NCBI RefSeq assembly: GCF_027924665.1
Contig: NZ_AP027043.1
Coordinates: forward strand, 5,084,001 to 5,148,000
Direction of reading: 5' to 3'
From: Flavobacterium sp. GSB-24
GTDB lineage: Bacteria; Bacteroidota; Bacteroidia; Flavobacteriales; Flavobacteriaceae
DNA: 64,000 bases
Both the position numbers and the translations under genes were made by a program. How positions within the stretch are numbered: position 1 is the first letter of the stretch; each line of letters starts with the position of its first letter. Positions 3,996-32,693 of this stretch are shown here, piece after piece. The notes beneath the pieces are model-generated. The model was not told the origin of the DNA. It saw only the letters and a list, made by a program, of their open reading frames with translations, and made no database searches.

Positions 3996-5573
3996 ATGAA
4001 TCGTTCCGAACAGTTATCTCAATTACAAAATACACAAAAATGGGACGTAATCATAATTGGCGGTGGAGCTAGCGGTTTAGGAACTGCTATTGATGCTGCC
4101 AGCCGAGGTTATAAAACAATTTTATTAGAAGCTGTAGATTTTGCAAAAGGAACTTCAAGCAGAAGTACAAAACTGGTTCATGGCGGCGTGCGTTATTTGG
4201 AACAGGGAAATATTCATTTGGTAAGAGAAGCTTTAAAGGAAAGAGGTTTAATGCTTCAAAATGCCAATCATTTGGTTAAAAATCAATCTTTTGTTATTCC
4301 AAATTACCATTGGTTTGGCGGATATTTTTACACTTTCGGATTAAAAATTTACGATTTATTATCGGGGCGCCTGAGTTTAGGAGGTTCTAAATATCTTTCG
4401 AAAAAGAAAACAATTGAATTGCTTCCAAACGTCGAAGAAATCGGATTGAAAAATGGTGTTATTTATCACGATGGTCAATTTGATGATTCTCGTCTAGCAG
4501 TTAACATGGCTCAGACTGCTGTGGAGAATGGAGCCTGCGTTTTAAATTATGTAAAAGTTTTCAATTTACTAAAGGACGATAAAAATCAAATAATTGGTGT
4601 TCAGGCTCAAGATCTAGAAACCGGAATTAAATATAGTCTAAAAGGTGCTGCCATTATAAACGCAACTGGAGTTTTTACAAACGCTATCATGAAACTCAAT
4701 GATACAGTTTACAAAAAATATATTGTTCCAAGTCAGGGAATCCATTTAGTATTTGATAAATCTTTCTTGCCAGGTGAAAATGCCTTAATGATTCCGAAAA
4801 CAAAAGATGGACGAGTTTTGTTTGCTGTTCCGTGGCACAATCATGTTGTGGTGGGAACGACGGATACTTTAATAAAAAAACAAAGTTTAGAACCAATTGC
4901 TTTAGAAACTGAAATTCAATTTGTTTTAGAAACAGCACAACGATTCTTAGCCAAAAAACCAACACGAACAGATGTATTATCGGTTTTTGCAGGTTTGCGC
5001 CCGTTGGCCGCCCCAAAAGAAGAAGGAAAAAGTACCAAAGAAGTTTCTAGAAGCCATAAAATAATTGTTTCTGAAACTGGGCTTATTACCATTACTGGAG
5101 GAAAATGGACAACTTACAGAAAAATTGCCGAAGACCTAATAGACAAAGCTATTAAAACGGGAAAATTAACAAAAAAGGAATGCGTTACTGAGCATCTTTC
5201 TATTCACGGAAATAAACCTACAACGTCTCTCGATAGAGAAAATCACCTTTATATATATGGTTCTGATATTCCAAAAATACTCGAATTACAAGAAAACGAG
5301 CTGGAGTTAAAAGAAAAACTGCATCCTGATTACGAATTTACAATGGCAGAAGTCGTTTGGGCGATTCGCTATGAAATGGCAAGAACTACTGATGATATAT
5401 TGGCAAGACGAGTACGATTATTATTCTTAGATGCCAGAGCTGCAATTGAAGTTGCAGAAAAAACGGCAAGAATAATTGCCAAAGAACTTGGTCATGATGA
5501 AGCTTGGATAAGTACAGAAATTGTCAATTTCAAACAAATTGCAAAAGGTTTTCTTTTGTCTGAATTCCAATAA
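3996..5573 (+). CDS. glpD: Aerobic glycerol-3-phosphate dehydrogenase
   Basis: A 525-residue FAD-dependent membrane-associated enzyme that oxidises sn-glycerol 3-phosphate to dihydroxyacetone phosphate and passes electrons to quinone. The N-terminal dinucleotide-binding motif is IIGGGASGLG (20-29), followed by the family signature GTSSRSTKLVHGGVRYL (residues about 51-67). Full length for the GlpD family, with the C-terminal helical DAO_C-type domain present. No glpK or glpF is adjacent, so it is transcribed alone from the box at 3956-3963. Confidence 0.93.
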   Translation: MNRSEQLSQLQNTQKWDVIIIGGGASGLGTAIDAASRGYKTILLEAVDFAKGTSSRSTKLVHGGVRYLEQGNIHLVREALKERGLMLQNANHLVKNQSFVIPNYHWFGGYFYTFGLKIYDLLSGRLSLGGSKYLSKKKTIELLPNVEEIGLKNGVIYHDGQFDDSRLAVNMAQTAVENGACVLNYVKVFNLLKDDKNQIIGVQAQDLETGIKYSLKGAAIINATGVFTNAIMKLNDTVYKKYIVPSQGIHLVFDKSFLPGENALMIPKTKDGRVLFAVPWHNHVVVGTTDTLIKKQSLEPIALETEIQFVLETAQRFLAKKPTRTDVLSVFAGLRPLAAPKEEGKSTKEVSRSHKIIVSETGLITITGGKWTTYRKIAEDLIDKAIKTGKLTKKECVTEHLSIHGNKPTTSLDRENHLYIYGSDIPKILELQENELELKEKLHPDYEFTMAEVVWAIRYEMARTTDDILARRVRLLFLDARAAIEVAEKTARIIAKELGHDEAWISTEIVNFKQIAKGFLLSEFQ

Positions 5574-25895: not shown

Positions 25896-26660
25896 TTATG
25901 CCAGCCAAGATTTAAAATCCTGCACTTTTTCTCGGCTTACAATAACCTCATCTTCTCTGTAAGTTGGTAAAATAACTTTTAGACGAGAATTGGTATACAC
26001 CTGAATTTCTTTAATAGCTTTTAACGGCACAATAAATTTTCTGCTTACGCGAAAGAAATCTTTCTTGTCTAATTCCTGCTCCAGGATTTCTAAAGTCGAA
26101 TCGATTAAATAATCACGATTTTCGTAAGTATGAATGTATGTTCCTTTATTTTCACTAAAAAAGCATTCTATTTCTTCTGTAGTAATGACTTTTAAATGCT
26201 GTCCAATTTTAACTGTAAACCTCTTTTTGTACGTTTTCTCAAAAGGATTGGAAAGCATTTGGCGAATCTGCTCAAAATCTAATTGCAGATTTGAACTTTC
26301 TGCTGCTTTTGGCATACGGGTTTTAAACTTCGAAACGGCCACTTCAAGATCATCTTCATCAATTGGTTTTAAAAGATAATCAATGCTGTTTAATTTAAAA
26401 GCCTTTAAAGCATATTCATCATATGCAGTAGTAAAAATAATAGCACTTTTGATGTCAATTTTTTCAAAAATTTCAAAAGACAAACCATCTGATAATTGGA
26501 TATCCAGAAAAATTAAATCTGGATGAGGGTTATTTTCAAACCATTCAACTGATTCTTCAACCGAATGAAGCATCGTTTCTACTTTTACATCTAACTTTTC
26601 AAGTTTTCTTTGCAGTAATCTTGCCGCTGGTTTTTCGTCTTCTATAATTAATGTGATCAT
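25896..26660 (-). CDS. LytTR-family response regulator
   Basis: A 254-residue two-component regulator. The receiver domain (1-120) has acidic residues E7-D8-E9, phospho-acceptor D53 in FLDIQLSDG, and the K in DYLLKPI. The C-terminal LytTR DNA-binding domain (about 150-254) contains FFSENKGTYIHTYENRDYLI and FFRVSRKFIVPLKAI. It is the last gene of a seven-gene minus-strand operon headed by a periplasmic protein and a LytS-type kinase, its likely partner. LytTR sites are usually pairs of 9-base direct repeats; none is identified with confidence here. Confidence 0.92.
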   Translation of the reverse strand: MITLIIEDEKPAARLLQRKLEKLDVKVETMLHSVEESVEWFENNPHPDLIFLDIQLSDGLSFEIFEKIDIKSAIIFTTAYDEYALKAFKLNSIDYLLKPIDEDDLEVAVSKFKTRMPKAAESSNLQLDFEQIRQMLSNPFEKTYKKRFTVKIGQHLKVITTEEIECFFSENKGTYIHTYENRDYLIDSTLEILEQELDKKDFFRVSRKFIVPLKAIKEIQVYTNSRLKVILPTYREDEVIVSREKVQDFKSWLA

Positions 26661-26699
26661 TTACTATAATGTAAAATTTGAAAAAAAATTAATTCAAAG

Positions 26700-27068
26700 T
26701 TACTCCCATTTTTTTTTATTCGCAGCGTCTTCTTCCATGTATTTTCGAATTTTCTTTTCCTCCCAGTTATCACTAAAAAAATAATCGCCGCTAAAAACAA
26801 GGAAAGCGTGAATTAAAAGTGCTATTCCCCATGAAAATGCTGTTGAGTAAGTATGCCACTCAAATAGACCACTTTGTCTAAATTCGCTGCCTATAAAATT
26901 TTTATTCAAACTTAAAAATATAATAATTACATTAACAATAATGTAAACTTTTAAATGTGAGTAAAAGCCTTTAATTTTCTTTACTTTCCTATACGCCTTA
27001 TTATAACGTTCATCAGTGTTAAAATCCTGCCCGTATTCTTCGTACATATGTCTTCTTAATCGTCCCAT
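26700..27068 (-). CDS. 2TM-domain membrane protein (copy 4)
   Basis: A 122-residue protein of the 2TM domain family. After a basic start (GRLRRHMYEEYGQ) comes the family core RYNKAYRKVKKIKGFYSHLKVY, a membrane hairpin (about 45-62 and 80-102) and a charged tail with WEEKKIRKYMEE ending in KKWE. ATG 27068 is chosen; an in-frame GTG at 27095 overlaps the preceding gene and lacks the family pattern. Its inter-helix loop is longer than in its siblings. Function unknown; the operon suggests kinase signalling at the membrane. Confidence 0.85.
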   Translation of the reverse strand: MGRLRRHMYEEYGQDFNTDERYNKAYRKVKKIKGFYSHLKVYIIVNVIIIFLSLNKNFIGSEFRQSGLFEWHTYSTAFSWGIALLIHAFLVFSGDYFFSDNWEEKKIRKYMEEDAANKKKWE

Positions 27069-27085
27069 TTTTTTATCTTTTAATA

Positions 27086-27391
27086 TTATTTCCACTTATT
27101 TTTGTTCTGTTTTTCCTTCTCCATAAATTCTTTGATTTTTCTTTCTTCCCATTCTTTTCCTAAAGTTGGGAAAACTTCAAAAACTTTCAATCCGTGAAAA
27201 ACAACCCCTACTCCCCACCATAATAAAGGCCAGAAAAACCATAAATACTGGGGTGATGTATATAAATTGATGAAAATCAGAATCGCATTTACCAATACAT
27301 AGGCAACAAGATTTCCATAAAATCCTTTGATATTTTCAACTTTTTTTCTTGCTTGAATGTATCTTTCTTCTTCGTTATAATTCATTTCCAT
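27086..27391 (-). CDS. 2TM-domain membrane protein (copy 3)
   Basis: A 101-residue paralogue: amphipathic N-terminus EERYIQARKKVENIKGFYGNL, two membrane helices (about 27-45 and 54-72) around the SPQYLWFFWPLLWWG turn, then LKVF and WEERKIKEFMEKE, ending KWK. ATG 27391 gives the same register as its siblings (M-E-M-N-Y); ATG 27403 would overlap the previous stop codon by 10 bases. Two bases after copy 2. Confidence 0.87.
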   Translation of the reverse strand: MEMNYNEEERYIQARKKVENIKGFYGNLVAYVLVNAILIFINLYTSPQYLWFFWPLLWWGVGVVFHGLKVFEVFPTLGKEWEERKIKEFMEKEKQNKNKWK

Positions 27392-27393
27392 GA

Positions 27394-27723
27394 CTACTCC
27401 CATTTTTGTTTTTTATTTCTTCTCTCTAAAATACTTTTTACTTTACGTGCTTCCCAATCTTCATCAAAAATCTTAAAAGAAGCAAATACATCTATTGCTG
27501 AACCAATGACGACCGCAGCCCACAAAATCATAATTACACCATTTAACAAATTAATCGGGAATACATTTAGCGGCAGTTTGGTGTATTCTTTTAAAAGGTA
27601 AAGTATTAGAATGATGGTGTAAATAAATAACTGTTTGTAAAAGGATTTAAGTTTAATAACTTTCCGACTTGCTAATTTCTGTAATTCAGATTGTTCTTTA
27701 TCAAAATCAAATTTTGTTTCCAT
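27394..27723 (-). CDS. 2TM-domain membrane protein (copy 2, divergent)
   Basis: A 109-residue member, the most divergent of the set. The core LASRKVIKLKSFYKQLFIY and the tail WEARKVKSILERRNKKQKWE are kept. The loop between helices lacks the SP-x-WF-W motif and the GWG-H-LKVF segment is replaced by AAVVIGSAIDVFASFKIF. One base separates it from copy 1. It may have a different partner within a hetero-oligomer; that is inference. Confidence 0.85.
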   Translation of the reverse strand: METKFDFDKEQSELQKLASRKVIKLKSFYKQLFIYTIILILYLLKEYTKLPLNVFPINLLNGVIMILWAAVVIGSAIDVFASFKIFDEDWEARKVKSILERRNKKQKWE

Positions 27724-27724
27724 A

Positions 27725-28027
27725 TTACTCCCAAGTTTTTCTAATTTTTTCTTTCTCTAGAATTTCTCTAATTTTTCTTTCTTCCCATTTTTTATTGAAA
27801 AAAGGCGGCAGGCTGAAAACTTTTAATCCGTGCATAATAAGAGCCATTCCCCATCCCATCAAGCACCATAAAAACCACAAATATCCTGGAGAAGTCATCA
27901 GATTTACCACAATCACAATTGGATTAGTTAGAAGATAAACTGTCAAATGCTCGTAAAACTCTTTTATTTCTTTTACTCTTTTCTGAGCATCATAATAACG
28001 TTCTGCTTCTGTAAAATCTTTTTCCAT
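27725..28027 (-). CDS. 2TM-domain membrane protein (copy 1)
   Basis: A 100-residue paralogue with the full family pattern: AERYYDAQKRVKEIKEFYEHL, helix 1 about 28-45, the TSPGYLWFLWCLMGWGMALIMHGLKVF loop and helix 2, and the tail WEERKIREILEKEKIRKTWE. It begins two bases after the stop of the kinase-2TM gene and is nearly collinear with that protein's C-terminal domain. Confidence 0.88.
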   Translation of the reverse strand: MEKDFTEAERYYDAQKRVKEIKEFYEHLTVYLLTNPIVIVVNLMTSPGYLWFLWCLMGWGMALIMHGLKVFSLPPFFNKKWEERKIREILEKEKIRKTWE

Positions 28028-28029
28028 GA

Positions 28030-29388
28030 TTATTTCCAGGTTTTTTGTTTGTTTTCTCTTTCTAGAATCTCTCTAATTTTTCTTTCCTCCCAATCTGAAC
28101 TATAACCGAATACCTTAAAAGCGTGCATCGTAATTCCAAATCCCCAGCCTAAAGCAGAAAACCAAAACCATTGAAATCCAGGTGAAAATCTAAGATTGAT
28201 AAAAACTAAAAGCGGAATCACACAACAGTATGAAATTATATTTGCATAAAATCCCTTTAATTCCTCAACTCTTTTTTTGGCTCTATAATAAGCTTTCGCT
28301 TCATCATTATAATCTGCATTTGTTTCCATAACACTAACTTGTTTTGTTAAAATTGGAATCTTAACCGTAAAATTTTTCTCGTCCTGCTCCACCTTCACTT
28401 TCCTATCGGTTATAATCCCGTAACGGTTTACAATATTCTGCAGTCCAACACCTTGTCTGTCCTGCAGCACTTCTTTCTTCTGAAGATCATTTTGAATAGC
28501 CAAATAATCTTTATCAATAAATATTCTAATATGAAGCGGTTTCTGTTCGCTTACCACATTATGCTTAACTGTATTTTCAAGCAAAAGCTGTAAGGAAAGC
28601 GGCACCACTTTAGCATCTGGATTTATGTCTTCTGTTGGCAATTCGTAAAACAAGCTGTTTTCGAAACGCATTTTCAACAAATTCATATAGGTTTTCGCAA
28701 ATGATAATTCGTCTTCAACCGAAACCAATTCTTTATCTTTTTGTTCTAAAACATATCTGTAAATTTTAGATAAAGAAGTGGTAAAACGCTGCGCATTATC
28801 TGGATTTTCTTCGATCAATGAACTTAAAACATTCAAGCTGTTAAAAAGAAAATGCGGATCAATTTGATTTTTTAAGCTTTCGAATTTAGCATTTGCTGTT
28901 CCTGCAATGATTTTCTGTTGTGTTATTTCAAATTTTGAAGCCCTTTTCCATTTTACCATAAAACTTCTGGCCTGCATAAAAGTCGAAACTCCTAATGATA
29001 AAATGATGTAGAAAAGATGCACCCATAACATTCTTGCACCAAAAAACACATCTAAAGTTACATGTTGCACGACAACGAAAATAAAATAGTTTATTCCTAA
29101 AACAACTGGAACCGTATATAAAACGGTTATTAAGATTCCGTAATAAACTCTCAGATTGGTTTGTTCCAGCCAATCCCATTTTTTATCTAGAAAAACATTG
29201 ATAAATCCGTTACCGAAACCCAATCCAAAAGAATAAAGACAGCTTATAAAAAAGGTTAAAAGAACGTTTCTAATATTTAGATCATCTCCTAAACAAGCTG
29301 AAAATATTATCGCAAATACCATTGCAATCTTGAAACATGCTATAGTTCCACCTTTTAAATCAGAAAAAACAGTTCCATCATCTTTCAT
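28030..29388 (-). CDS. LytS-type histidine kinase with C-terminal 2TM domain
   Basis: A 452-residue protein. Residues 15-145 hold about four membrane helices. A His_kinase domain follows with the phospho-acceptor H179 in QIDPHFLFNSLN, the N-box LLLENTVKHN (268-277) and the G-box RQGVGLQNIVNRY (311-323). Residues 354-452 are a complete 2TM domain (AKAYYRAKKRVEELKGFY ... LGWGFGITMHAFKVF ... WEERKIREILEREN ... TWK). That domain begins with M-E-T-N, like the start of the separate copies, as if a stop codon between kinase and 2TM genes had been lost. It is predicted to pair with the LytTR regulator at the operon's end. Confidence 0.9.
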   Translation of the reverse strand: MKDDGTVFSDLKGGTIACFKIAMVFAIIFSACLGDDLNIRNVLLTFFISCLYSFGLGFGNGFINVFLDKKWDWLEQTNLRVYYGILITVLYTVPVVLGINYFIFVVVQHVTLDVFFGARMLWVHLFYIILSLGVSTFMQARSFMVKWKRASKFEITQQKIIAGTANAKFESLKNQIDPHFLFNSLNVLSSLIEENPDNAQRFTTSLSKIYRYVLEQKDKELVSVEDELSFAKTYMNLLKMRFENSLFYELPTEDINPDAKVVPLSLQLLLENTVKHNVVSEQKPLHIRIFIDKDYLAIQNDLQKKEVLQDRQGVGLQNIVNRYGIITDRKVKVEQDEKNFTVKIPILTKQVSVMETNADYNDEAKAYYRAKKRVEELKGFYANIISYCCVIPLLVFINLRFSPGFQWFWFSALGWGFGITMHAFKVFGYSSDWEERKIREILERENKQKTWK

Positions 29389-29414
29389 ATAATCAGCTTA
29401 GTTTAATATTTTTA

Positions 29415-30035
29415 TTATTTACAAGTTTTTTGAACTTCAAGAGCTCTTTCTAACCCCCATTTTGGAGAAAAAGGAGTTTCTGGTTTAAAAGTACCAAAAA
29501 GTTCAATAGCTTTATCAACTTGTACACATAAAGGTTTTGTGTCAACTCCTGTCCATTTTGCGCCTCCTAATTGATAGTCAGCTTCTCCAAAAACTGCTCT
29601 TGGATTGTTTGGGTTAAGTGCTTTAGCTTTCGCGTAAGCTTCCATAACTTTTCCAGAATATTTCATTCCGTTTGTCATTGGGTCTGCTACAACATATCCT
29701 GTATAAATTAGCGCTTGCAATACATATAATTCTGAGTTACTTTGATCTTTTATCAATTCAATATCTAATGCATCCTGAGCTTTGGTTAATAACAAATCGA
29801 TTTTTGTTTTATCTTTTTCTGTAAAAACAGATAATGTGTTTACCAAACCTACATAGTAATTAGGAAGCCAGCTTGTTTTTTCAGCCGCTGCGATTCTTTC
29901 AAACATTGCAGAAGCATCTGCATTTTTGCCTTCTTTCCAAAGCCCGAAAGCTTTAGTCATTCCTTGTTCAAATTGTGTTTGTGCAGATAATAAACTGCAG
30001 ATAAATAATGCAATAACGGTGATAATTTTGGTCAT
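29415..30035 (-). CDS. Periplasmic tetratricopeptide-like protein heading the 2TM operon
   Basis: A 206-residue exported protein: signal peptide about 1-18 (ending SLLSAQ), then helical repeats (GMTKAFGLWKEGKNADASAMFERIAAAEKTSWLPNYYVGLV; AYAKAKALNPNNPRAVFGEADYQLG) that resemble TPR motifs. No enzyme motif is visible. It lies 26 bases upstream of the kinase gene with no promoter between, so it is probably cotranscribed. A sensor-associated or envelope-status role is an inference. Confidence 0.78.
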   Translation of the reverse strand: MTKIITVIALFICSLLSAQTQFEQGMTKAFGLWKEGKNADASAMFERIAAAEKTSWLPNYYVGLVNTLSVFTEKDKTKIDLLLTKAQDALDIELIKDQSNSELYVLQALIYTGYVVADPMTNGMKYSGKVMEAYAKAKALNPNNPRAVFGEADYQLGGAKWTGVDTKPLCVQVDKAIELFGTFKPETPFSPKWGLERALEVQKTCK

Positions 30036-30118
30036 GATTTCTTTTTTTTAAAGTTTATAAGTTATTAAGATTCTGGTATTCTAAGTTTTTTTATTGATGA
30101 TTAAAACTCTTTTTTTTA

Positions 30119-30386
30119 AGGTTCAAAGGTTTTGAGCTGCAAAGGGACAAAGGTTTGTTTTTTTATATTGTTACTATTTTTAAAACTTTGAACCTTTGTC
30201 ACTTTGCTTCTTTGTTCCTTTCTAATTTATACTTCAAAAGTATTACGGATTTTACTCTTTAAAAATTAAATGATACTGAGTTGTTGATTTTTGATGATGA
30301 ATTGTTTTTTTGGAGATTCTGAGGTTCTAAGTGACTAAGATTCTAAGTTTTTCTTAGCAACTTAGAATCTCAGAACCTTAGCATCT
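30119..30386. repeat. Two word-repeat palindromes between TPR-like gene and TonB receptor
   Basis: 30119-30220 holds AAGGTTCAAAGG and GACAAAGGTTT words facing AAACTTTGAACC and TTTGTTCCTT. 30313-30386 holds GAGGTTCTAAGTGACTAAG facing CTTAGAATCTCAGAACC, the CTAAG family. A -7 box for the minus-strand operon, TACTTTTG (30242-30235), lies between them. No gene is supported in 30036-30387. Confidence 0.7.
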
Positions 30387-30387
30387 T

Positions 30388-32553
30388 TTAAAGATTCTTC
30401 AACTGATTCTCATTTTTATTCTGGCTGATTGTCCAGAAGAAACCAACGAAGAAAAATCTATCTGCGGTTGGTGTTACAGCTTGTCTTTGATAAACTCCGC
30501 TTGGATCTGCTGTTTTGGCATAATCATATCCAAAAACATTTTGTGTTCCTAAAATATTCGAAACAGAGAAGTAAAGAATTTTTTGTGTGGTTAATAAATA
30601 GGCCCAGTTGAAACTTAAACTATTGTAAGATTTTGTTTTTCCGCTCATAAATTGCGTTTGGTTCGGATCATTGTAAGGACGTCCTGAGCTGTAGCTATTT
30701 GTAAAACCTACTTGCGATTTCCAGTCTGTAATAAAATATTTGGTTACAACAGACAAACTATGATTAGCAATAAAACTTGGAGTAGCCATGTTTGGAAAGT
30801 TTTTATATTGTCTTTCTGAATCGATGTATGAATATGAAATCCAATATTCTAAGTTTTTGTACAAATTGCTGTCTCTCCAAAGTACATCCAATCCTTTTGC
30901 ATAACCCGATCCGTTATTATTGAAAACCGAATTGTACTGAATATCTCTTGTATCGTATTGAACTAAATTGCTGTAATCTTTATAATATAATTCTGTTCTA
31001 AGCAGTTGTCCAGGTTTTGTAAACGTATAATTTAAGATATAATGTCTGGCTTTTTCACTCTCAAACTGATGGTATTTTGAATATTTAATATAATCTACAA
31101 CAGGCGTTTGAGAAAAATCTCCGTAAGCAAACGAGAACTGGCTACTTTTTGAAACTTTATAACCTAATGAAGCTCTTGGAGCAAAATTATTTTCGTTTAA
31201 CAAACTGTTATTTGAATATCTCAAACCAACTTTTAAAGCTAGATTTTTAGAGATCGAAAGATCTGCTTCTGTGTAAGCTGCAAAAATATTAGAATCGTAG
31301 CCATTTGAACCGTTAATAGAAACATTATCATCGAAATTTTCGTTGTATTTGGTAATGAAATAATCTGTACCGAAAGACAATCTAAAATGGTTGGAAACCT
31401 TTTTGGCAAGTTTCAATTTCAACTGTGCTGCATTTTCGTTGCTGTCAACATCTGTGATATTATATTTCAATTTATTTTTACTGTAACCGTAACTAATTCC
31501 TGAAGTTAACTGCCATCCTGTTCCAAAACTTCCTTTGTATGAAGAATTCAAATAAAAGTTATTATTGTTCATATCGGTTCTGATCGGATTTTCGAAATTG
31601 ATATTTTTCTGATTCAAATCGAATTTCTCCGAGTCGAAAGAAGCGTATAATTTAAAGATTCCATTTGTGAATTTATATCGGTAAACCGTTTCACCTCCAA
31701 GAGATTGATAGGGATTATTCCAATCTACATTTTGTGGAATTACTGCTTGATAAGGCGCCAAATTTATATAAGCCATATTGACACTTAAAGAACTTTTTTC
31801 CCATTTTTGAGTATTTCCTAAACTCAAACCCACTGTCATTAATCCGATATCTGTTTTTTCGTGATCTTCTTCGTCTTGTGTATTTAAAAGCAAAACACTA
31901 GATAGAGCTTCGCCATATTCAGCAGAATAACCTCCAGTAGAAAATGCAATTCCGCTAAACAAGAAAGGAGAAAATCTGCTTCGAGTTGGTAAGTTATTGG
32001 TTGTCGCTCCGTAAGGCTGCGCAACTCTAATTCCGTCAATAAAAGTCTGTGTTTCATTGGCCTCACCTCCACGCACAAACAAACGTCCGTCTTCACCAAC
32101 AGTTTGTGTACCCGGCAAAGTTTGTAAAGCTGCTACAATATTTCCTGCAGAACCCGCAGTTGTTACAATATCTAATGGTTTTAAAACAGAAACCCGTGCT
32201 TTGTCTCCAGACTCTAAGGTTCCAGCTGTGATTACAACGGCATCAAGAGCATTAACGTTTTCTCTTAATTTTACCGTTTGATTTTTATAATTGGTAACAT
32301 CAATTTCGGTTTTAAAAGTTTCGAAAAGTAAAAAACTAACTACTATAAATTGATTTCCTTCAGCAGTTGTTTCAAAAGAAAAATCTCCCGTTTCAGAACT
32401 TGTTGCTCCATCATAAGTGCCGTCAATATAAATATTAGCACCGGCAACTGGTTTTCCTTTTTGATCTACAACTCTTCCAGAAATAGTATTTTGCGCAAAA
32501 ATTAAAGCTGTAAAAAATAAAAAGCTAATGGTAAAAAATAATTTGGTTTTCAT
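30388..32553 (-). CDS. TonB-dependent outer membrane receptor with carboxypeptidase-regulatory-like N-domain
   Basis: A 721-residue outer-membrane protein: signal peptide about 1-20 (ending LIFAQ), a CarboxypepD_reg-like domain (GRVVDQKGKPVAGANIYIDGTYDGATSSETGDFSF), a plug (GRLFVRGGEANETQTFIDGIRV) and a 22-strand-type barrel. ATG 32553 is used; the in-frame start at 32592 would place the -7 box inside the gene. No SusD partner follows, so it is probably not a glycan PUL. The ligand is unknown. Confidence 0.9.
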   Translation of the reverse strand: MKTKLFFTISFLFFTALIFAQNTISGRVVDQKGKPVAGANIYIDGTYDGATSSETGDFSFETTAEGNQFIVVSFLLFETFKTEIDVTNYKNQTVKLRENVNALDAVVITAGTLESGDKARVSVLKPLDIVTTAGSAGNIVAALQTLPGTQTVGEDGRLFVRGGEANETQTFIDGIRVAQPYGATTNNLPTRSRFSPFLFSGIAFSTGGYSAEYGEALSSVLLLNTQDEEDHEKTDIGLMTVGLSLGNTQKWEKSSLSVNMAYINLAPYQAVIPQNVDWNNPYQSLGGETVYRYKFTNGIFKLYASFDSEKFDLNQKNINFENPIRTDMNNNNFYLNSSYKGSFGTGWQLTSGISYGYSKNKLKYNITDVDSNENAAQLKLKLAKKVSNHFRLSFGTDYFITKYNENFDDNVSINGSNGYDSNIFAAYTEADLSISKNLALKVGLRYSNNSLLNENNFAPRASLGYKVSKSSQFSFAYGDFSQTPVVDYIKYSKYHQFESEKARHYILNYTFTKPGQLLRTELYYKDYSNLVQYDTRDIQYNSVFNNNGSGYAKGLDVLWRDSNLYKNLEYWISYSYIDSERQYKNFPNMATPSFIANHSLSVVTKYFITDWKSQVGFTNSYSSGRPYNDPNQTQFMSGKTKSYNSLSFNWAYLLTTQKILYFSVSNILGTQNVFGYDYAKTADPSGVYQRQAVTPTADRFFFVGFFWTISQNKNENQLKNL

Positions 32554-32575: not shown

Positions 32576-32583
32576 CAAATGTA
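32576..32583 (-). promoter_or_regulatory. -7 promoter box of the TonB receptor gene
   Basis: Minus-strand TACATTTG (32583-32576), 22 bases before the ATG at 32553. Confidence 0.5.
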
Positions 32584-32693
32584 TTTTAACATTTTCTGTT
32601 AAAAAATATATAATAACCCAATTGTAGAATTTCGAGGATGAGTTGTAAATTACTAATTTGTATCTTAGCTATGAAATCCAAAATCATCATTTT

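Follow-up and report, generated by a model that had tools for sequence, protein, structure and literature searches.

A histidine kinase, free 2TM proteins and a LytTR regulator beside a TonB-dependent receptor in Flavobacterium

The locus and its proteins

The window analysed here is a 64,000-nucleotide stretch of the genome of Flavobacterium sp. GSB-24 (contig NZ_AP027043.1, positions 5,084,001 to 5,148,000). Our subject is a gene cluster in this window in which a histidine kinase, four free proteins of the Pfam family 2TM (PF13239), here called T1 to T4, and a response regulator with a LytTR DNA-binding domain stand together. From 25896 to 30035 there are seven open reading frames (ORFs) on the minus strand, arranged head to tail (Table 1); an earlier reading of the letters alone, the original prediction, had described them as a seven-gene operon, and each is present where it was placed. 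The five consecutive 2TM domains that it had counted, four free and one fused to the kinase, all match PF13239. The unit was thought to end at 30035, which is too early: the cluster runs on into a TonB-dependent receptor and two regulatory repeats, and the receptor and both repeats belong to the operon's unit. Within the operon, the kinase and T1 are separated by 2 bp, T1 and T2 by 1 bp, and T4 and the regulator by 39 bp; T2 and T3 overlap by 10 bp, and T3 and T4 either overlap by 10 bp (GTG start of T4) or leave a gap of 17 bp (ATG start).

Table 1. Features of the cluster (positions in the window)
Feature	Position	Strand	Basis or remark
Histidine kinase	28030..29388	-	four predicted N-terminal membrane helices, His_kinase PF06580 core, C-terminal 2TM module
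Kinase-fused 2TM module, residues 369-442	28063..28284	-	Pfam
T1, free 2TM protein	27725..28027	-	Pfam; lineage n=13, support 0.999
T2, divergent free 2TM protein without the TM2 histidine	27394..27723	-	Pfam; lineage n=16, support 0.995
T3, free 2TM protein	27086..27403	-	Pfam; lineage n=14, support 0.998
T4, free 2TM protein, common last-position type	26700..27068 (ATG) or 26700..27095 (GTG also possible)	-	Pfam, tree
Response regulator, receiver and LytTR DNA-binding domains	25896..26660	-	Pfam
HusA-like secreted helical protein	29415..30035	-	relative of Porphyromonas gingivalis HusA (PG_2227)
LytTR-type direct repeat before the secreted protein/kinase operon, ACAATTCATCA-N10-ACAACTCAGTA	30273..30307	-	weight matrix, 45.1 bits
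Putative -7 box TACTTTTG, 30 bp after the operon repeat	30235..30242	-	motif match
TonB-dependent receptor (CarboxypepD_reg, plug, barrel)	30388..32553	-	Pfam; the ORF itself opens at 32592
LytTR-type direct repeat before the TonB receptor, ACAACTCATCC-N10-ACAATTGGGTT	32614..32648	-	weight matrix, 32.6 bits
Putative -7 box TACATTTG, 30 bp after the receptor repeat	32576..32583	-	motif match

Against a gathering cut-off of 24.8 bits, PF13239 scores 105 bits in T1, 37 in T2, 107 in T3, 80 in T4 and 89 in the kinase module, and five of the six 2TM domains in the source genome lie in this cluster. The window modules are 29-52% identical to one another, and T2, a very divergent member, is 29-30% identical to the other copies. 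Four species comparisons place the nonsynonymous divergence (dN) of T1 to T4 well below the synonymous divergence (dS), with ratios that are rough, dS being often above 1, saturated, and as high as 3 for T2; the free genes look real and under purifying selection. The original prediction had also described a tail common to all five modules. Its W-E-x-(R/K)-K part is the core of the Pfam family, whereas the terminal K/T-W-E/K is specific to lineages rather than family-wide: in the genus, 87 of 115 free copies and 43 of 47 kinase copies have the penultimate tryptophan, compared with only 40 of 109 and 13 of 40 in other genera. We rejected this terminus as a functional signature, its conservation being lost outside the genus. 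In the second transmembrane helix (TM2), the conserved residues W415, G416, G418 and H422 of the kinase (W80, G81 and H87 in T4) would suit helix packing, and T2, which does not have the histidine, could be a non-equivalent partner. Two histidines of the T4-type proteins do not vary among 40 aligned sequences: H38, where the first helix begins or close to it, and H87, late in TM2; the window kinase has an asparagine at the position equivalent to H38. A ligand role for these histidines is conceivable.

The kinase matches PF06580 with 90 bits and has the phospho-acceptor histidine and ATP-binding boxes of such a core; its residues H179, N272 and G315 are invariant among 66 aligned kinases. In its AlphaFold2 model, four long N-terminal helices are followed by the kinase core, which a low-confidence linker (350-360) connects to the 2TM module (helices 358-401, 408-427 and 429-448). 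The mean predicted local distance difference test (pLDDT) is 80.9 and the predicted template modelling score (pTM) is 0.47, so that the relative placement of these parts is not trustworthy; if the modelled helices are membrane-embedded, the catalytic core would be tied to the membrane at both ends. The nearest solved fold is GanS (6swj), which comes first among the 50 of 373 PDB matches listed for the model; almost all of these 50 are histidine kinase entries, and none suggested a match for the C-terminal module. The N-terminal helices were considered as further 2TM copies and dismissed, as the extra matches (about 1-12 bits) are noise. The label LytS given to this kinase by the original prediction is imprecise: the 5TMR-LYT input domain, named as characteristic of LytS-type kinases in a passage of PMC10653868, has no Pfam match in it at an E-value of 0.001. 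The regulator matches PF00072 with 54 bits and PF04397 with 78 bits, and LytR and BtsR, the curated entries that match it best, score far under their respective cut-offs.

The first protein of the operon had been called periplasmic. It is a secreted relative of HusA, which had been missed: it matches PDB 6bqs, P. gingivalis PG_2227, with an E-value of 1.3e-9 over 168 residues, and PG_2227 is HusA. Parts of PMC6173696 and the entries 6bqs and 6crl describe HusA as a haemophore resembling tetratricopeptide repeat proteins, with the TonB receptor HusB as its proposed partner, and report altered haem spectra for mutants of W130 and Y164. As in HusA/HusB of P. gingivalis, the homologue adjoins a TonB-dependent receptor, here one with CarboxypepD_reg, plug and barrel domains, and the docking residue F80 is kept as F71. 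On the other hand, the key haem-spectrum residues are not kept: W130 and Y164 align with glycines (G122 and G157), and L123/V124, the third site whose mutants altered haem spectra, with V115/A116 (HusA numbering has an offset of 21, fixed by R121, W130, Y133 and R139). A porphyrin ligand was considered on the basis of the HusA likeness and is not claimed, because these groove residues are replaced by glycine. The system is best called a switch for a TonB-dependent uptake unit.

Distribution and lineages of the 2TM genes

Among sampled genomes, PF13239 was detected in 57 of 61 from the genus, 93 of 100 from the family Flavobacteriaceae (one per genus), 27 of 139 from the class and 31 of 148 from the phylum. 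We compared 47 loci of the genus (L007-L053, the window's included, chosen from among the matches listed), 40 loci from other genera of the family and from a second family of the order, and 80 named loci, the best 80 of at least 582, assigned to Flavobacterium, Polaribacter, Tenacibaculum, Chryseobacterium, Kaistella, Cloacibacterium, Christiangramia, Mariniflexile and unclassified Flavobacteriaceae. Fourteen of the 61 genus genomes are without a fetched cluster, among them G038, represented by a receptor fragment only (L229). The named loci overlap the other sets, and dereplication at 95% kinase identity left 153 clusters.

The cluster is widespread in Flavobacteriaceae and Weeksellaceae, usually in the order TonB receptor, HusA-like protein, kinase-2TM, free 2TM genes and LytTR regulator. 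A few loci differ: a 2TM gene precedes the kinase in L167, L174 and L183, and others have an extra gene before the regulator. The original prediction had proposed a survey of 2TM copy number beside the kinase and the LytTR regulator; here 149 of the 153 dereplicated clusters have 1-7 free 2TM genes. The clusters with 0, 1, 2, 3, 4, 5, 6 and 7 such genes number 4, 28, 48, 43, 20, 7, 1 and 2. Free genes are missing in L177, where the contig ends in the kinase, and in L023, L035 and L038; in L023 and L035 a divergent ORF, a candidate 2TM-like gene, occupies the position of the free genes, and the candidate of L023 has no Pfam 2TM match. The regulator was found in 145 clusters, the HusA-like gene in 110 and the receptor in 90; these are minimum counts, lowered by contig ends, fetch limits and broken or cut loci (the frameshifted pieces of L168; L134, L136, L176 and L177).

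Nor do 2TM genes occur mostly away from kinases within the order, the finding that was to speak against a role in signalling. The 16 genomes of the phylum sample that have a fused kinase contain 74 2TM domains, counted from the listing; 63 belong to the kinase cluster, and the other 11 are located elsewhere. We inspected seven of the 11 (L005, L094-L098, L100), and each of them is either next to dihydrofolate reductase or fused to it. Beyond the order, most 2TM genes stand by themselves, and 15 of the 31 positive phylum genomes have no fused kinase. Five further 2TM loci from outside the order (L103, L228, L230, L231 and L232) gave no kinase or regulator match and no regulatory site (see below) scoring 12 bits or more. 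L102, from a family outside the order, is an unfused cluster with a 2TM gene, a kinase without 2TM and a regulator. The dihydrofolate-reductase-linked loci are L005, L094, L095, L099, L100, L096, L097 and L098. In the source genome, the sixth 2TM gene is directly upstream of folA, the dihydrofolate reductase gene (L005 937-1776), and in three other Flavobacteriaceae genomes a similar 2TM is fused to the enzyme (288-310 amino acids; Pfam-checked in L096), which probably makes a membrane-bound dihydrofolate reductase.

A tree of 311 modules from 87 loci (the 47 of the genus and the 40 of other genera) places T1, T2 and T3 in three well-supported lineages (Table 1). T4 falls within a larger type of 78 modules with a support of only 0.65; this type is present in 40 of the 47 genus loci. 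Of the 84 loci in both sets that have free genes, 58 have a T4-type gene in the final 2TM position ahead of the regulator, with other genes occasionally between the two. T1 precedes T3 in all 13 pairs, T2 precedes T3 in 11 of 11 and T3 precedes T4 in 15 of 15; the order of T1 and T2 varies (10 versus 2). T1, T2 and T3 are old lineages in a nearly fixed order. A recent tandem duplication as the origin of the copies is rejected for these three, whose counterparts elsewhere are closer than their window paralogues (median identity to the own lineage 72% for T1, 53% for T2 and 78% for T3). T4 has a median identity of 41% to its broad type versus 42% to its best window paralogue, and identity alone does not settle its origin. 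Some first-position copies of other genera group with kinase modules, with mixed support, as if copied from the kinase.

Direct repeats and the apparent regulon

Alignment of upstream regions shows that some of the loci share a conserved block ahead of the HusA-like gene, the core of which is a direct repeat, ACAAYTCA...ACARYTCA, with a period of exactly 21 bp. Across the 47 genus loci there are 16 pairs of exact half-sites at period 21, and none at the other periods between 15 and 30 or on the opposite strand; with one mismatch allowed, there are 33 pairs at period 21 and 3 at other periods. We trained a weight matrix on 28 different genus sites, one of which is probably spurious (6.4 bits). 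In the window it finds exactly two strong sites, those of Table 1, and the next best scores 7.8 bits. Among held-out clusters, namely dereplicated clusters without a kinase at least 95% identical to the training loci, 105 of 109 have a site of at least 16 bits on the cluster strand and one on the opposite strand. BtsR recognises two 8-bp repeats separated by 13 bp, which is the same 21-bp period. LytTR targets are described, in the accessible text of PMC6193735, as 9-bp repeats mostly 12 bp apart, a geometry equal to the period found here. By position and period the sites look like LytTR direct-repeat targets upstream of promoters.

Over 167 loci there are 263 sites of at least 16 bits, and the gene that follows is HusA-like in 116 cases, the receptor in 88, the kinase in 39, the first free 2TM gene in 15 and the second in 3, with none in 2. 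A motif, TANNTTTG, which like the window boxes TACATTTG and TACTTTTG we take to be a Bacteroidota-type -7 box, lies exactly 30 bases after the repeat in 102 of 251 unique downstream stretches; on average only 10.5 shuffled stretches had a match anywhere. The box at this distance is common before the receptor (39/83) and the HusA-like gene (56/109), and both window repeats are followed by one. Because the putative box before the receptor lies inside the extension to 32592, ATG 32553 is the likelier start of the receptor, with a signal peptide recognised by eye. The intergenic region 30050-30400 also has imperfect repeats of the type CTTAGAA/TTCTAAG, which vary among relatives too.

The free 2TM genes appear to be targets of the regulator in their own right in part of the family. 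In 15 of the 40 other-genera loci, a site of at least 16 bits lies between the kinase and the first free 2TM gene, at 23-92 bp from that gene in the 14 loci with a distance, and in 5 of the 15 the fetched stretch has no other 16-bit site. Over all three sets, 16 of the 24 gaps of at least 80 bp between kinase and first 2TM gene contain a site scoring 12 bits or more, compared with 1 of 139 shorter gaps. In L102, where the kinase is unfused, a 24.8-bit repeat lies 35 bp before the 2TM gene; the eight dihydrofolate-reductase-linked loci, used as a control, score no higher than 6.7 bits.

The regulon looks nearly private to the cluster. In the source genome, the fuller pattern with up to 3 mismatches finds the two cluster sites and two weak ones (control 1). 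In the 61 genus genomes, the pattern with at most one mismatch finds 61 sites, 56 of them at the cluster by our own count (including two in G038 beside the receptor, L229) and 5 elsewhere, with 2 in a reversed control; 40 of the 47 genomes with a fetched cluster have a near-exact site there, and the 13 genus genomes without an identified cluster have no near-exact site. The five off-cluster copies (G003:C8:38648, G036:C1:490404, G044:C89:1830, G047:C273:36982 and G049:C1:462579) may be further targets or chance. A genome-wide regulon drawn from a loose half-site pattern (142 matches, reversed control 21) was discarded, because many of the listed matches are 7-bp tandem repeats that mimic period 21. 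Such repeats (ACAATTC, ACAACTA) are numerous in the source genome, for example at G000:C1 4002326-4002403, 4837524-4837573 and 2114249-2114305.

A possible switch, competing explanations and known systems

We lean towards reading the cluster as a self-contained two-component switch for uptake in which the free 2TM proteins, co-regulated with the kinase, act as its partners and determine its state. Its domains being intact, the kinase would pass phosphate to the LytTR regulator in the ordinary way. The regulator would then bind the repeats just upstream of two promoters, with an effect of either sign, one promoter serving the TonB receptor and the other the HusA-like protein, the kinase, the 2TM proteins and the regulator itself; in this way it would control both the receptor and its own operon. 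The free 2TM proteins would be near-obligate membrane subunits that pair with the C-terminal module of the kinase and tune its activity, and since their amount would be under the control of the regulator, a feedback loop would be closed. From its distribution, T4 may be the basic partner, and T1 to T3 older, specialised duplicates. We infer the pairing from the shared module, the near-obligate linkage, the co-regulation and the alternation of fused and unfused forms; a 2TM gene beside an enzyme alternates with a 2TM fused to it both for the kinase and for dihydrofolate reductase. That the free proteins belong to the signalling unit at all is argued by the module in common with the kinase, the linkage in nearly all clusters, their own repeats and the unfused cluster of L102. 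More tentatively, a graded set of free 2TM hairpins, driven by the regulator, might exchange with the kinase module in mixed assemblies, with their number and kind (0-7) setting the threshold or the shut-off of the switch; we would sooner doubt this than accept it.

Several observations weigh against the free proteins as partners of the kinase. Contact between 2TM modules is inferred; the kinase model has the low pTM noted above, and the T4 model (pLDDT 68) is too weak for use. No site of at least 16 bits precedes the first free 2TM gene in the 47 genus loci, the window's included, and the first free 2TM gene of all 80 named loci is likewise without such a repeat. On the kinase tree the separate repeat of the 2TM block is clustered, and it is not a single event: it needs 8 gains or losses, 6 of them forced by well-supported branches. 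The -7 box at +30 is rare before the kinase (5/39) and before the free 2TM block (2/15), and L038 keeps a fused kinase with no free 2TM gene detectable. Moreover, the same data fit free 2TM proteins that are outputs of the system rather than its regulators: small membrane proteins produced alongside the uptake receptor, for instance to assist it or to shield the inner membrane, with the module of the kinase serving only as an anchor. Their place in the regulon, with a repeat of their own in part of the other-genera loci, suits this explanation, and a 2TM beside or fused to dihydrofolate reductase is most simply read as an anchor. On the other hand, the kinase already has four predicted membrane helices, and a second, C-terminal anchor would need another reason. 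Free 2TM genes also persist where the fetched upstream region shows no HusA-like gene or TonB receptor (for example L057, L059 and L070), which suggests that they follow the kinase rather than the uptake genes. We consider outputs of this kind rather unlikely.

It is still less probable that the LytTR regulator is tethered to the membrane by the free 2TM proteins and inhibited by them, as in the LytTR Regulatory Systems. Sections of PMC6193735 describe a membrane protein beside a LytTR regulator together with autoregulatory repeats of 21-bp period, and the T4-type gene is often the last before the regulator, though genes sometimes intervene. The regulators described there have no receiver domain, however, and the membrane families are DUF3021 and DUF2154, not 2TM; here a receiver and a kinase are present, and the module is common to the kinase and not to the regulator. 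We regard as highly improbable that the tandem copies are largely dispensable duplicates kept by chance. Copy number does range from 0 to 7 between species, and T2 and T4 diverge fast, but three window copies belong to lineages of 13-16 members with support of 0.995-0.999 in nearly fixed order, dN is below dS, and the T4 type is found in most loci of the genus.

The original prediction had held that no described mechanism covers this arrangement. That is too strong, as the LytTR Regulatory Systems already pair a membrane protein, a LytTR regulator and autoregulatory direct repeats (PMC6193735). The window's system falls outside that class, which is defined by a regulator without a receiver and by the absence of a kinase: unlike HdrRM and BrsRM in the same source excerpts, it has both a kinase and a receiver, and its membrane family is 2TM, common to the kinase. 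The BtsS/BtsR-type (LytS/LytTR) systems of E. coli resemble it in that, in passages of PMC5552118 and PMC10653868, a PF06580 kinase and a receiver-LytTR regulator control an uptake protein. They differ in that here four N-terminal helices are predicted, 5TMR-LYT is undetected, the 2TM module is C-terminal, free 2TM genes lie between kinase and regulator, and the apparent targets are the TonB receptor and the system's own operon. The nearest functional analogue of the proposed role is LiaFSR, where, according to extracts of PMC11237479, the membrane protein LiaF exerts inhibitory feedback on the kinase LiaS. LiaF has domains of its own type and is one protein instead of a set of paralogues, and LiaR is a winged-helix regulator, not LytTR. 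Neither a described function for PF13239 nor a description of a 2TM kinase/LytTR system was found in the open-access literature searched, which leaves most subscription papers uncovered; in a phage-shock-protein survey that mentions 2TM and LytTR, the two 2TM passages in the text available concern other proteins.

The cluster ties PF13239 to what appears to be a full circuit of kinase, regulator, nearly private DNA repeat, -7 box and target receptor, in which the free 2TM genes of some genera would be separate targets. With such a circuit, a reporter could be used to test directly what the domain does. The cluster also suggests that pieces of the membrane portion of a kinase, once duplicated, can persist as separate, regulated and specialised genes.

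Some clusters contain additional genes. In many relatives a gene for a secreted protein stands between the receptor and the HusA-like gene; in L117 it is a DUF2141 protein (4897-5304, Pfam-tested), and a secreted protein has the same place in L032, L036, L043, L120, L121 and L161, whereas the window has no such ORF listed there. Loci of the second family have a methyltransferase-like membrane protein among the free 2TM genes (ICMT/PEMT, L072 6115-6684; a similar ORF in L073, 5042-5611). In two loci (L085, 8281-10382, and L138) a second kinase-LytTR pair, with no 2TM detected, directly follows the cluster.

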